Part shown: piece by piece, positions 38,715 through 51,226 of the stretch
Numbering within the stretch: the first letter of the stretch is position 1
Layout: every line of letters starts with the position of its first letter
Assembly: GCF_009711165.2 (NCBI RefSeq)
Contig: NZ_WMID02000034.1
Coordinates: forward strand, 1 to 64,000
Length of the DNA: 64,000 nt
Reading direction: 5' to 3'
Source of the DNA: Flavobacterium sp. MC2016-06
GTDB taxonomy: Bacteria > Bacteroidota > Bacteroidia > Flavobacteriales > Flavobacteriaceae
Made by a program: the position numbers and the translations under genes
Notes under the pieces: generated by a model
Databases searched by the model: none
What the model was told of the DNA's origin: nothing
What the model saw: only the letters and a program-made list of their open reading frames with translations

Positions 38715-38782
38715 AAGTAACAAAGCCTCAGATTCCTCTGAAGCTTTGTTTTATTAGCAGGAAACATTCAAATATCGAATTT
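38715..38782 (+). repeat. dispersed spacer repeat, diverged copy
   Basis: The core gcctcagattcctctgaagc, then ttttattagcaggaaacatt and caaatatcgaat, is a diverged match to the long copies at 5.5 and 59.7 kb. It probably works as the terminator of the gene just upstream. Confidence 0.65.
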
Positions 38783-38845: not shown

Positions 38846-41332
38846 TTATTTTATTCCAAGATTTCCATCAAAAGTATTAAAGTCATCTTTTCTTTTGGGT
38901 TTAACAATTAATAAATGATAGAGTTGGTGACAGATTGATTTTAATTCAATTAAGTTAGAATTGTCAATTGCTTTTTCTCCTAATTCTATCAATTTGCTGT
39001 GTTTAGACCTGTCTTTGAAGGCACTTGAATCTTCAAATCGCAAATGATAAAAATAATTAATGTAGCTTTCGTCTTGATTGTAATAGATGTCATCTAACAG
39101 ATTTTCTAATTCTTTATTCTTTTTGCGAATCAAATATTTATTGTTGGATTGAATAACTTCCTTTTCGTTTTTTATAATCTTTTCATATTCTTCTTTCTGG
39201 CGTGGCGTACCTTTTTCGATATAAAAAGAAAGGCTGTCTTTTATCTTATTGTACTCTTCAAGCTCAGACAATATATGTTTATGTCGGATAAGATCGTCAA
39301 ATTCCTGAATGTAGATTTTTTTCAATTCATCAATTTGATATTTTTTATCTGTAATAGCATCATTTTTATTTTCCAATGCCTCATTATACAGAATCGTTAA
39401 CGATTCCTGAGATCTTTTTAATTTGGCTAAATATTCATAATTTTCATCCTGTTCTTCATTTTTAATTTCTTCTAAAATCGTATCTAAAGCATTCTTAATT
39501 TCCAATGCTAATTTTTCAATCGAAATTGTTCTTTGATGCGGATTAAAGACTTCACTTATTTCTAAATCTAGAGCACCTATATAAACATCAATACTTAAAT
39601 CTCGGGACTCAGAAACTTTAAAATTCAGTTCAATATCCATTCCTTTTAAAAGATCCTGTTCAAAATTACTACCGCATATTTCGATATATCCAATAGAGAG
39701 ATTACTGCCCACCATACTTCCTGCATTGCCTTCAACTACATTTATAATAAGTTTTTGGTCAGAGTTTTTTAGTATGTTTTTAGAACAGGTTTTGTAAATG
39801 GTTTTCTTTAGAGGCAGAATATCGTTTTTCTTAAAAATAATTTCCATGTGGCTTTTGCCCGTTTCTTCATCTAGTTCCAAACAAATGTCATTCGGAATTG
39901 GCTGTCCCAGAATACTGTACAACCCGTTAGTAATTTGAATATTCGCCTTACTAAACACTTGTTTTTGTTGATTGTCGAATAAAAACAGTGTGAATTGATT
40001 GGTTGTTTTTTCCAGTAAAGGAACAAACTCGGCTATTTTTTTATTTGCTTTCAGAAGACCAGTGTCAAAACCACCATCTGCTCGGGTAATTCTGTAATAG
40101 CCTTCAAATGATTCTTCCAAAAGAATAACAATTAGTTCTTCAGAATCTTTAGAGTGTGGTTCGTAGATCGTTTCAACCTGGATATTATTTTCTTCAAATG
40201 CAGGCTCTTTTACAACCTCTTCATCCATTAATTCTGAAGGTTTTGAACCAGCATAATAGGCTGCTCCAATCATTACTGCAGTTGTAGGATCTATACTTGT
40301 TTCTACCTGAATTTGAGTTCTCTCTTGTAATTGCTGGCGGATGTAAGGAATATAAGTAGTACCGCCCACAAGTATAATGCGCTCTATGTCTGAAAAATTC
40401 AGGTGATTTTCTTTAATTAATTTTTCAACCAAATTAAAGGATTCTTCAAATTTAGACTGAACGATTAATTCAAATTCTTTTCGACTGATATCGATATCTA
40501 ATGAGATTGAAAGTTCATCAAAATCAATTTCAATACTTGAGATTTCTTTTATCGAAAGTTCTTTTTTTGCTTCCTCTGCTTTGTAAAGAAGTTCAAAAAA
40601 GAGTTTATTATATACGGGGTTTTCTTTAGCAATTAGTTTTGCCCAAAGATTATTTTCCTGAGTTGCTTTTTCAATTTTTGGGCATATTATTTTTTCCACA
40701 AATAGCGTATCTAAATCGACACCTCCCAGAAAATTATTGCCTTTATGATCAAATACCTTAAGATCTCGCTCGTTGATGTTTACTAACGCGATGTCAAATG
40801 TTCCACCTCCAAAATCGTATACCAGCCATTTTTTATCGGATGTAATTTCGATATTTAAGGAATTTGAATAAGCCAAACAAGCAGCAATAGGTTCCTGAAG
40901 CAAAACGATTTCTTCAAAACCTGCCTGATAACCTGCTTTTTTGGTGGCATTAGACTGAATTGTATCAAAAGAAGCTGGAATTGTAATGACAGCAGATTTT
41001 AAACTTTCGCCTTGAGCGAAATTAATTAATTCATTTAAAACCATTGAAGACAGTTCGATCGGACTGCAGTTTTTATCCAGATCTTTAATGAAATAGACTT
41101 CATCAGATCCCATTTTTCGTTTAAAAGATGAGAATACATTTTCGGCATTTGTTGCGCTGTGTTCTCTTGCTTTTTCGCCTATTTGAATGCGTCCTTTTCT
41201 AAATGAAACTACAGACGGAATAGTATCCTTAAATCCAACTGGATTTTTATAAATACTGATTTTTCCATTTTCGTATTTTGCAATTCCTGAATTCGTTGTT
41301 CCTAAATCAATTCCGATATTGATATTCTTCAT
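38846..41332 (-). CDS. divergent Hsp70-family protein
   Basis: An 828-residue protein. The Hsp70 ATPase domain is complete (NIGIDLGTTNSGIAKYENG, AVITIPASFDTIQSNAT, DFGGGTFDIALVNI, IILVGGTTYIPYIRQQLQER; residues 1-370). It lacks the DnaK substrate-domain hallmark and instead has an acidic linker, a beta-rich region (ICLELDEETGKSHMEIIF, GSNLSIGYIEICGS) and about 250 residues of charged helix. It is 190 residues longer than DnaK. It forms an operon with a tiny GrpE-like protein 12 bp upstream, so it should be a dedicated chaperone machine. The clients may be the two tail-anchored paralogs encoded divergently. Confidence 0.9.
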   Translation of the reverse strand: MKNINIGIDLGTTNSGIAKYENGKISIYKNPVGFKDTIPSVVSFRKGRIQIGEKAREHSATNAENVFSSFKRKMGSDEVYFIKDLDKNCSPIELSSMVLNELINFAQGESLKSAVITIPASFDTIQSNATKKAGYQAGFEEIVLLQEPIAACLAYSNSLNIEITSDKKWLVYDFGGGTFDIALVNINERDLKVFDHKGNNFLGGVDLDTLFVEKIICPKIEKATQENNLWAKLIAKENPVYNKLFFELLYKAEEAKKELSIKEISSIEIDFDELSISLDIDISRKEFELIVQSKFEESFNLVEKLIKENHLNFSDIERIILVGGTTYIPYIRQQLQERTQIQVETSIDPTTAVMIGAAYYAGSKPSELMDEEVVKEPAFEENNIQVETIYEPHSKDSEELIVILLEESFEGYYRITRADGGFDTGLLKANKKIAEFVPLLEKTTNQFTLFLFDNQQKQVFSKANIQITNGLYSILGQPIPNDICLELDEETGKSHMEIIFKKNDILPLKKTIYKTCSKNILKNSDQKLIINVVEGNAGSMVGSNLSIGYIEICGSNFEQDLLKGMDIELNFKVSESRDLSIDVYIGALDLEISEVFNPHQRTISIEKLALEIKNALDTILEEIKNEEQDENYEYLAKLKRSQESLTILYNEALENKNDAITDKKYQIDELKKIYIQEFDDLIRHKHILSELEEYNKIKDSLSFYIEKGTPRQKEEYEKIIKNEKEVIQSNNKYLIRKKNKELENLLDDIYYNQDESYINYFYHLRFEDSSAFKDRSKHSKLIELGEKAIDNSNLIELKSICHQLYHLLIVKPKRKDDFNTFDGNLGIK

Positions 41333-41344
41333 ATAATGATACTA

Positions 41345-41632
41345 TTATTCTACTATAACAACTGCTTTTTGAACCAGTTGCAGCGTGTCGTTTTCTGTTT
41401 TGTAAATTGTGGGTCTAATAACTTTGGTTATTTTCTTCGAACTTGAATTAAGAATATTTGCATCAATAGAGCTGTCTCTTTCATCATAATTTGTCCCCAA
41501 AGGATTTATAATTTTATATCCTTTTTCTTCCAATTCATTATAAATTCTTTTTAGATTGCGCTCAAAACCATTGAAGTTTTGTTCCAATGCTTTTTTTTCA
41601 ATTTCAAACAGTTGGTTTATTATTACATTCAT
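41345..41632 (-). CDS. mini GrpE-like nucleotide exchange factor
   Basis: A 95-residue protein. After a short helix (IEKKALEQNFNGFERNLKRI) comes GYKIINPLGTNYDERDSSID then ITKVIRPTIY and LQLVQKAVVIVE. This follows the GrpE beta-domain pattern (G-x-x-x-I-x-P-x-G-x-x-Y/F-D ... V-x-x-V-x-x-P-G-Y ... L-R-P-A-x-V-x-V). The long dimerising helix of GrpE is mostly missing. With its position directly before the Hsp70 gene, nucleotide exchange for that Hsp70 is the obvious role. The GrpE relation is by pattern, not by search. Confidence 0.72.
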   Translation of the reverse strand: MNVIINQLFEIEKKALEQNFNGFERNLKRIYNELEEKGYKIINPLGTNYDERDSSIDANILNSSSKKITKVIRPTIYKTENDTLQLVQKAVVIVE

Positions 41633-41736
41633 TTTTTAAAATCGGATTTTTATGAATGAGCAATTTACAATTTATTTAATACGATATTAAGTATCAATAT
41701 TATTTTTTATTAGTGCTTTAATTAACTTATAACGCG
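41633..41736. promoter_or_regulatory. divergent promoter region of the Hsp70 module
   Basis: A 104-bp A/T-rich gap between the GrpE-like and first tail-anchored gene. A small inverted repeat (atacgatattaagtat) lies near 41682. It must contain both promoters and so probably co-regulates all four genes, but no clean TAnnTTTG box is visible. Confidence 0.45.
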
Positions 41737-42570
41737 ATGAATGTTATTCAATTATTCTCTTTATTAGATTTAAAAAAGGATCAAATTTTAGAATTTGAAT
41801 CTGAGGATTATATTAGAATTGAGAAAAAAATAAATTTCGAGAAAAAGATAAACTCAGAAATAGATTCTAAAGTGAGTGAAAATTTAATTACTGCATTAAA
41901 AGAATACAAAGAAGAGTTATTGTTTATAATGTCTAATCGTATTTTTTTTAATTTTTTTACAAATAATAATTTCTCCAAAGACTATTTCTCAAATCATGAT
42001 TTAGCTGTTTCTGATGAAAAAATGAAACACTTTATTGCTCTTTTTTTAGCAGATGATCTGATTTCTATTTTCAGTTTAAAACTATCAAAAAGTTGGTATC
42101 ATTATTTAGAAGAACTTGACTTTCTATTAGATTTAAAAAGATATTTTCCCGAAGAGATTATCTATAAAATGGGGTTGCTTATCTTTTCTAAACTTGATTT
42201 TGCTATTTATCAATTAGCTGTTTTAAAGACTAATGAGTTTTCGAATATCCTTTATATTAAATACAAAACCTTTTACGATTTACTATCTCATTTTACAACG
42301 GTAGAATTAGATCAAAAAATTAGTAATCTATTGTCGTTAGTGATTGAATTTTATAAAAAAAAGGCTAATGTCAATTTTTTTACCTGTGTTATACAATCGA
42401 TGGCATTTTATAATGCTTTTAATGAGAATATAAATGATACTCTTGCAAAAAATAGGAACGTTGTGTCTGTTTTTATAGAAGAGGATAGAGAAAAAAGGCG
42501 TGATGCTATATTTGTAATCATTGTTATTGTCTTTTGTTTTATAGCTTTTGTAGTGGGTAAATACTTCTAA
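41737..42570 (+). CDS. tail-anchored helical protein, paralog 1 of the Hsp70 module
   Basis: A 277-residue helical protein with one C-terminal membrane segment (AIFVIIVIVFCFIAFVVGKY) and almost nothing after it, so it is tail-anchored with the bulk in the cytoplasm. It aligns end to end with the next gene (NVIQLFSLLDLKKDQILEFE/NIIELFEELKIDKSNILLFS; IRIEKKINFEKKIN/IRIEKQINVEKRIN; LITALKEYKEELLFIMSNRI/LILALKEYRHELYFIVSNRI). No known family. It is divergent from the Hsp70/GrpE-like pair. Confidence 0.78.
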   Translation: MNVIQLFSLLDLKKDQILEFESEDYIRIEKKINFEKKINSEIDSKVSENLITALKEYKEELLFIMSNRIFFNFFTNNNFSKDYFSNHDLAVSDEKMKHFIALFLADDLISIFSLKLSKSWYHYLEELDFLLDLKRYFPEEIIYKMGLLIFSKLDFAIYQLAVLKTNEFSNILYIKYKTFYDLLSHFTTVELDQKISNLLSLVIEFYKKKANVNFFTCVIQSMAFYNAFNENINDTLAKNRNVVSVFIEEDREKRRDAIFVIIVIVFCFIAFVVGKYF

Positions 42571-42642
42571 ATTTATTTATTGTTTAATCTTTTACAAAAG
42601 AGTTAAAAAGATTATGTTTGTGCTCTAAAATCAGCATTAAGG

Positions 42643-43497
42643 ATGAACATAATAGAGTTATTTGAAGAGTTAAAAATAGATAAAAGCAATATTCTATTAT
42701 TTTCCCCAGAAGAAATAATCCGAATAGAAAAACAGATTAATGTTGAGAAAAGAATAAATACAGCTATAGACGTTAATGTCGCCAATAATCTAATTTTGGC
42801 CTTAAAAGAATATCGCCATGAACTCTATTTTATAGTTTCAAACCGAATTTTGTACAATCTTTTTTCGAAAAAAAATTATTCAAGGAATAGTTTTCCTTCT
42901 CCTCAAAGAGAATATGATGCTGAAAAGATTCAGTCTTTTATAAATCAGTTTCTTAATGACGATTTAGTATTGTTTTTTGATCAGCATTTGTCTCAAAATA
43001 AATTTGATTTCATTAATGATATTTTTGATTTTAAAGACTGTTTTCCTGAAGACGCACTTTTTCAATTAAATAAAAAACTAAGCGGAAAGCTAGATTCAAT
43101 ACTTGCAAATTTTAGTCGATACAATGCGTCGTCAGACATGTCGGCAATTCCATATGTAGAATATAGAAGTTTTTATGTTTTGCTATCCTATTTCAGTTCT
43201 ATCGAGATGGATGATAAAATAAGAAGCCTTGTAAACATTGTTTCCGAGCGTTATAATGCCAATAAACTATCTGATTTTTATATGGCTTGCATATCTTCTA
43301 TGCAGGGATATGTTGCTTATGATCCTAATTTGACTGATATTTTGGTCAAAAATAGAGAAGCTGTTCTTTCTAATAGTGTTGAAAGAAGTTCGTCATCAAG
43401 TAGTAGTTCATCGGGTTTATCAGGGAAATCTATTTTTTTTATAATACTTGCTGTTATAAAAATATTGTCTCTTTTTGCCCATTGCTCCAGATATTAA
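42643..43497 (+). CDS. tail-anchored helical protein, paralog 2 of the Hsp70 module
   Basis: A 284-residue paralog of the previous gene, with the same helical body, a Ser-rich linker (ERSSSSSSSSSGLSG) and a C-terminal membrane segment (IFFIILAVIKILSLFAHC). The linker replaces the charged stretch of paralog 1. The pair could form a membrane heteromer controlled by the Hsp70. A dispersed-core terminator lies 60 bp downstream. Function inferred only from context. Confidence 0.78.
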   Translation: MNIIELFEELKIDKSNILLFSPEEIIRIEKQINVEKRINTAIDVNVANNLILALKEYRHELYFIVSNRILYNLFSKKNYSRNSFPSPQREYDAEKIQSFINQFLNDDLVLFFDQHLSQNKFDFINDIFDFKDCFPEDALFQLNKKLSGKLDSILANFSRYNASSDMSAIPYVEYRSFYVLLSYFSSIEMDDKIRSLVNIVSERYNANKLSDFYMACISSMQGYVAYDPNLTDILVKNREAVLSNSVERSSSSSSSSSGLSGKSIFFIILAVIKILSLFAHCSRY

Positions 43498-43555: not shown

Positions 43556-43594
43556 TAAAAAAAGCTTTAGATTTCTCTGAAGCTTTTTGTTTTT
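43556..43594 (+). terminator. terminator (dispersed core repeat)
   Basis: The core gctttagatttctctgaagc is flanked by A and T runs. It lies between the convergent tail-anchored gene and the RpiR-type regulator and can serve both. Confidence 0.65.
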
Positions 43595-51190: not shown

Positions 51191-51226
51191 ACAAAAAAGC
51201 TTCAGATTTCTCTGAAGCTTTTTTTA
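51191..51226. terminator. terminator (dispersed core repeat) between porin and tRNA-Glu
   Basis: The core gcttcagatttctctgaagc is a perfect 7-8-bp stem with A and T runs. It is convergent and serves the porin and the minus-strand tRNA. Confidence 0.75.

Follow-up and report, generated by a model that had tools for sequence, protein, structure and literature searches.

Which partners serve an Hsp70 whose locus encodes no J-protein? The question is raised by four genes at positions 38846–43497 of a 64,000-nucleotide stretch of Flavobacterium sp. MC2016-06 (contig NZ_WMID02000034.1, positions 1–64,000; hereafter the window), from a genome of 6.17 Mb in 121 contigs. In the textbook view, Hsp70s need a J-protein. 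An initial annotation of this DNA had proposed a self-contained module in which an Hsp70 and a small GrpE-like protein accompany two paralogous tail-anchored (TA) proteins, TA1 and TA2. With somewhat better than even confidence, we favor a dedicated, inner-membrane-tethered Hsp70 machine with the Hsp70 as engine, a mini-GrpE as exchange factor, and TA1 and TA2 as targeting adaptors. In such a machine the Hsp70 would bind and release client segments through its ATP cycle, and the mini-GrpE would exchange its nucleotide. A C-terminal helix would anchor TA1 and TA2 to the inner membrane and leave the remainder of each protein in the cytosol; constraint patterns suggest that their N-terminal domain (N-domain, residues 1–75) would dock the Hsp70 while the variable solenoid would pick clients at the membrane. 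The whole would work like Escherichia coli HscC with DjlB/DjlC, through adaptors that have no detectable kinship to DjlB/DjlC. The engine appears familiar and the partners unfamiliar. Since the conserved Hsp70 has an exchange factor of its own while its partners lack a recognizable J domain, the J-protein rule becomes directly testable on a small set of parts: one Hsp70, an exchange factor of 95 residues, and a candidate docking domain of 75 residues.

Four genes form a co-occurring module

Open reading frame coordinates confirm two gene pairs diverging over 104 bp. The Hsp70 (828 residues, 38846–41332, recognized by its Pfam ATPase domain) and the mini-GrpE (95 residues, 41345–41632) lie 12 bp apart on the minus strand. 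Across the intergenic control region (41633–41736), TA1 (277 residues, 41737–42570) and TA2 (284 residues, 42643–43497) follow on the plus strand, separated by 72 bp. None of mini-GrpE, TA1, and TA2 reaches a curated cut-off in Pfam or NCBIfam, and their matches in PADLOC and PHROGs are marginal only.

Among 345 Bacteroidota genomes, the top matches to profiles of the Hsp70 C-terminal region and of mini-GrpE coincide in the same 7 genomes, with weaker additional matches to the former (4, the best in G553 at E 2.1e-30) and to the latter (2). TA relatives occur in 6 of these 7 genomes and in 3 of the 338 others, one of them weak (Fisher p 9e-11 with the weak match left out). The association recurs among 169 Flavobacterium genomes, where a TA gene is found in 11 of 13 genomes with the Hsp70 versus 13 of 156 without it (p 3e-9). 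We also laid out 62 loci by script (L014 and L104 being one genome): 44 carry both mini-GrpE and Hsp70, and 38 of the 44 carry a TA relative. The remaining six are L017 (a short contig), L036, L046, L106, L146, and L167; at L046, L146, and L167 an adjoining protein has, by eye, a similar N-terminal motif, and L146 scores E 6.3e-4. Because the paralogs co-occur with this Hsp70 type and the small protein has a GrpE-like beta domain (see below), the proposal of a self-contained module is supported.

The Hsp70 combines an intact ATPase domain with a divergent C-terminus

The ATPase domain had been described as intact, and this is borne out by a PF00012 match over residues 6–362 (E 2.4e-64); the GIDLGTTNS and GGGTFD segments, among others, are invariant in 21 aligned Hsp70 rows. 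The claim that the substrate domain has been replaced fared less well. Pfam finds no match in the C-terminal 465 residues of the window protein, but residues ~482–607 are weakly co-linear with the beta part of the DnaK substrate-binding domain (SBD-beta; hhalign P 0.005–0.01). PF00012 itself matches within this region in 1 of 20 relatives (E 1.2e-4), the window protein having no such match. Since the region is co-linear and one relative scores, we read the C-terminus as a divergent substrate-binding domain preceded by an inserted region of ~110 residues (roughly 375–480), with no replacement. A helical part and a C-terminal tail follow, the latter with an invariant Gly826 in the same 21 rows, an alignment that does not show the VLLLDV linker present in the genome's own DnaK. 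Assignment to DnaK or HscA was rejected, as the protein scores 226.9 bits on the NCBIfam DnaK equivalog (cut-off 822.55) and 217.5 bits on the HscA equivalog (cut-off 708.55). Its ATPase domain shares 29% identity with HscC and 33% with the genome's own DnaK, so that HscC is no nearer than DnaK.

The 95-residue protein resembles a minimal GrpE

The predicted model of the 95-residue protein comprises two helices (residues 2–17 and 21–36) followed by a GrpE beta domain, and in structure comparison the helix pair and beta domain match GrpE across the entire length. The likeness to GrpE noted in the initial annotation therefore holds for the modeled fold and for the position beside an Hsp70 gene, but not for sequence statistics: hhalign gives a non-significant E of 0.071 over 32 columns, PF01025 does not match, and the only Pfam rows are sub-threshold (best UPF0180, E 0.0023). 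The protein also differs from GrpE in size, E. coli GrpE having 197 residues, and the long N-terminal paired helices of GrpE are not present. We take it to be the private nucleotide exchange factor of the module Hsp70, an activity that the model would suggest. With nothing beyond a helix pair and a beta domain, mini-GrpE shows how small a GrpE may be. A 128-residue relative is encoded in Kaistella (L047, 9950–10336), with no Hsp70 labeled within the surrounding 20 kb.

TA1 and TA2 have a constrained N-domain that may face the Hsp70

TA1 and TA2 are paralogs (40% identity over 244 positions) with one C-terminal membrane helix each, as had been claimed; both sequences end in a hydrophobic helix, which spans residues 261–281 in the TA2 model. 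This AlphaFold2 model (pLDDT 90.6) is all helical and consists of the N-domain, an alpha solenoid, and the terminal helix, a layout shared by TA1. The C-terminal helix would place both proteins in the inner membrane with the remainder in the cytosol. TA1 sequences from the window and seven sister loci share on average 83% pairwise identity in the N-domain, 61% in the solenoid, and 32% in the linker and transmembrane helix (TM); the corresponding means for TA2 are 87%, 81%, and 70%. Median ratios of nonsynonymous to synonymous substitution (dN/dS; 21 pairs for each gene) are 0.059 for Hsp70 and for mini-GrpE, 0.159 for TA2, and 0.316 for TA1, the highest of the four genes.

These patterns bear on whether TA1 and TA2 are adaptors or, as the initial annotation also considered, clients, in which case Hsp70 and mini-GrpE would target or hold a few tail-anchored proteins whose real work lies elsewhere. 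The fast evolution of TA1 relative to Hsp70 fits the client explanation, as does the persistence of TA genes in genomes with no detected Hsp70. DnaK is also reportedly required for the biogenesis of DjlC, a result attributed to Peschke 2018 in a citing review. A tail-anchor client, however, would be expected to show constraint on its TM, whereas the linker and TM are the least conserved and the N-domain the most conserved part; moreover, a relative on a Pseudomonas plasmid has tetratricopeptide repeats (TPR) and no predicted TM, yet retains the N-domain and the triad of genes. We consider the client explanation unlikely.

Under the tethered-machine reading, the N-domain would face the Hsp70. 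The main evidence, suggestive rather than conclusive, is that constraint on the N-domain is linked to the presence of Hsp70 and that two orphan TA proteins, the tree sisters L158 and L161, begin past it (profile positions 109 and 112). Several counterweights have to be set against this and against the machine as a whole, some of them attached to the very numbers that favor it. The excess conservation of the N-domain over the solenoid drops from 0.179 with Hsp70 to 0.054 in genomes without it, in a comparison whose pairs are not independent. On a tree, the N-domain/solenoid length ratio is 0.83 for orphan branches and 0.56 for module branches, a modest shift of 1.49-fold with a bootstrap range of 1.02–2.00 (columns resampled only, not branches). 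Values for single branches range between 0.15 and 1.94, with only 0.66 for the main orphan clade and 1.32 for one module branch (L035). L036 and L106 have long flanks and the Hsp70/mini-GrpE pair, yet no TA relative was found there. Conversely, 11 TA genes stand alone between trpS and dprA in genomes that yielded no such Hsp70, and the orphan-type TA set, which includes a copy from the window genome itself, has a median dN/dS of 0.139 (at a median dS of 1.68, near saturation); because these genes persist under such ratios, an Hsp70-independent role of TA proteins is possible. Finally, we infer, rather than observe, the interactions, topology, docking, exchange activity, and clients of the module proteins.

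Sequence does not identify the N-domain as a J domain

The suggestion that the tail-anchored pair fills the J role draws indirect support from the Hsp70-linked constraint on the N-domain and from the analogy with HscC and DjlB/DjlC. Its simplest form, a J domain in the pair, finds no support in sequence: an HPD motif occurs in the first 110 residues of 0 of 156 family members, and a J-domain profile aligned to the TA N-domain gives a non-significant hhalign E of 0.21, whereas DjlB/DjlC reach E 4.9e-7 in a test of the same kind. By these sequence measures the TA N-domain is not a J domain, although a small L105-like subgroup beats shuffles with a J model. The order of helices in the TA2 model (residues 3–9, 22–38, 44–56, and 58–65) resembles that of a J domain; a fold search was filled by solenoid matches.

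No J-domain protein is encoded within the four-gene module, as originally noted, and the genome contains three PF00226 proteins elsewhere. Because genes for a canonical CbpA and a MerR_2 (CbpM-like) protein are placed divergently next to the module at L147 (11321–12514), some family members may still rely on an ordinary J-protein.

The closest parallel is architectural

Among known systems, the most likely parallel by architecture is HscC with DjlB/DjlC, to which the present module would add a private GrpE-fold exchange factor. In both, the gene for an accessory Hsp70 lies close to those for two paralogous partners of one layout, which in DjlB/DjlC is an N-terminal J domain, a long middle, and a C-terminal TM (PMC8215388, in part). 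Homology between TA2 and DjlC is nevertheless not detectable (BLASTP E 3.9; profile E 0.35), and TA profiles against DjlB and DjlC jointly give E 0.2–0.32. The HscC system also differs in that HscC has been suggested, in the portion of PMC8215388 consulted, not to interact with GrpE, whereas the module encodes its own GrpE-fold protein. Pairing of an Hsp70 gene with one for a dedicated exchange factor is likewise known from Myxococcus xanthus, where the second Hsp70, MxDnaK2, forms a two-gene operon with a nucleotide exchange factor that binds it (MXAN_6672–6671; PMC11019930, in part). Those two proteins, unlike ours, are DnaK and GrpE homologs, and the available portion of that source does not mention tail-anchored partners.

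More tentatively, and a little short of even odds in our view, the module would add another class to the prokaryotic Hsp70 machines DnaK, HscA, and HscC. This class would combine an extended Hsp70 and a minimal GrpE with a non-J adaptor (N-domain plus solenoid) that does the job of the J-protein; mobile elements would have spread it, and in Flavobacterium it would have settled between trpS and dprA. In such a class the adaptor would be membrane-anchored in Bacteroidota and, on the Pseudomonas plasmid, fused to TPR with no predicted TM.

Flavobacterium loci with the module between trpS and dprA

In 11 Flavobacterium loci, some from close relatives, trpS and dprA flank the complete module, and a lone TA gene occupies this site in 12 further loci. 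One of the latter is the third TA gene of the window genome (G000:C53:14563–15432; L143, 8576–9433). In a quick tree, 7 of the 12 lone genes cluster (SH-aLRT 100) with the TA protein of L028, whose gene lies between Hsp70 and dprA, and the remaining 5 are placed with long forms. TA-like sequences also occur as a fragment elsewhere than trpS-dprA (G774) and as a match at a contig end (G755), and the number of TA genes per locus ranges from 1 to 4. At L166 (G797), with dprA adjacent, the Hsp70 gene is broken by stops while mini-GrpE and both TA genes look intact. The trpS-dprA site is probably ancestral for the family; in the simplest reading the window copy has moved and several lineages have dropped Hsp70 and kept TA. 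Flavobacterium genomes with the partner gene at trpS-dprA and no detected Hsp70 thus offer natural knock-outs.

The description of the window locus as accessory DNA holds in part. Its new site is partly shared, because five sister loci (L016, L018, L019, L021, and L023) have the same downstream neighbor (363–364 residues); L014 and L015 have different neighbors, and the probable ancestral site is trpS-dprA.

At the 11 trpS-dprA loci the TA protein takes a long form of ~480–530 residues, with a mid-protein TM and ~215 residues beyond it. Such forms would suit an envelope sensor, in which the TA family relays a periplasmic or membrane signal to the cytosolic Hsp70, and envelope genes do adjoin some modules. 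At L149 (G682) and L150 (G320) the module lies immediately downstream of gldKLMN, the gliding and type IX secretion motor genes (Pfam on L149 only, with gldK by position; L150 by layout), and exbB and exbD lie near it at L107 and, by layout, L108. These neighbors come from two pairs of related genomes, and because the window TA proteins stop no more than a few residues after the TM, they have no periplasmic domain. We regard a sensor role as very improbable.

Relatives on plasmids and beside defense genes

Because relatives lie on plasmids of Pseudomonas, Vibrio, and Aminobacter and on pHALHY02, the family is mobile as well as settled. A conjugative plasmid of Pseudomonas hygromyciniae carries a complete triad: a 706-residue TPR/N-domain/solenoid protein (profile A7, E 4.8e-28), a 117-residue mini-GrpE (E 2.1e-29), and an Hsp70 sharing 38% identity over 99%. 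On the Vibrio and Aminobacter plasmids a distant Hsp70 is preceded by a small protein, detected in Vibrio (E 3e-6) and not in Aminobacter, and a candidate third partner was noted by eye. A cousin operon (type B) was seen at L103, L152, L153, L154, L169, and L202, with BREX genes beside it at L202. It comprises a protein starting NP(Y/F)R, a ~300-residue GrpE-like protein with a TM, Hsp70, a kinase-AAA protein (by family search at L103 and L152), a TerB-like protein, and DUF6804 where checked.

The surroundings of these relatives relate to an immune role, which had been raised as possible for the window locus and in which Hsp70 would sense or disarm phage proteins and the membrane proteins would execute the response. 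On the Bacteroidota plasmid pHALHY02 a type B operon adjoins the BREX genes brxL and pglZ; DndC-like genes stand beside a cousin operon on pSDM007, a NACHT-FGE protein at L153, and methylase-like genes (by eye only) near L105 and L106. Variants of HSP70, GrpE, and DnaJ occur in predicted conflict systems of the GAP1-N2 type, as HSP70, GrpE, and DnaJ-fused proteins together, mostly in actinobacteria and firmicutes (PMC7159879, in part), and DnaJ mediates phage sensing by bNACHT25 (PMC12169576, in part). The GAP1-N2-type systems share with our locus a neighborhood of Hsp70, GrpE, and J-type partner; they are GTPase-centered (PMC7159879, same portion), whereas no GTPase gene was seen in the four-gene module. 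These defense neighborhoods come from reading individual loci. For the module itself, the fixed trpS-dprA site in 11 Flavobacterium loci is unlike a typical roaming defense cassette, and mini-GrpE relatives are absent from 50,697 phage records at E 1e-5. PADLOC models gave no credible match for any of the four proteins, two marginal and unrelated hits (Csm3, E 0.012; Cas10d, E 0.0017) being rejected. We therefore regard the immune explanation as rather improbable; the window copy offers no support for such a role, which is possible for its cousins. Should the cousins on plasmids and beside BREX genes operate like the tethered machine we favor, mobile DNA may carry private Hsp70 machines as a component that has been overlooked.

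Control region and flanking hairpins

The 104-bp intergenic region is similar in the window and in 6 of 7 sister regions; at L015 it is longer and similar only in part. On its minus strand (41667–41697) lies a match to TTG-N20-TAAATTGT, which resembles the Bacteroidetes promoter and which is also matched in 26 of 100 window shuffles.

The module had further been described as bounded by terminators. A generic terminator scan of the window found 2 sites versus 2.0 by chance, but a terminator-like hairpin repeat does flank the module on the plus strand, on the left (38719–38750; folding z −4.7) and on the right (43559–43588). It belongs to a near-identical GATTTCTCTGAAGCTTT-type repeat with 12 copies in the window (0.07 expected at ≤2 mismatches), all on the plus strand between 5470 and 63808, among them those at 38731 and 43570 on the two sides of the module and another at 51205. 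Exact 18-mers of the repeat number 8 in the genome, 6 of them inside the window, and the sister loci carry it on both strands.

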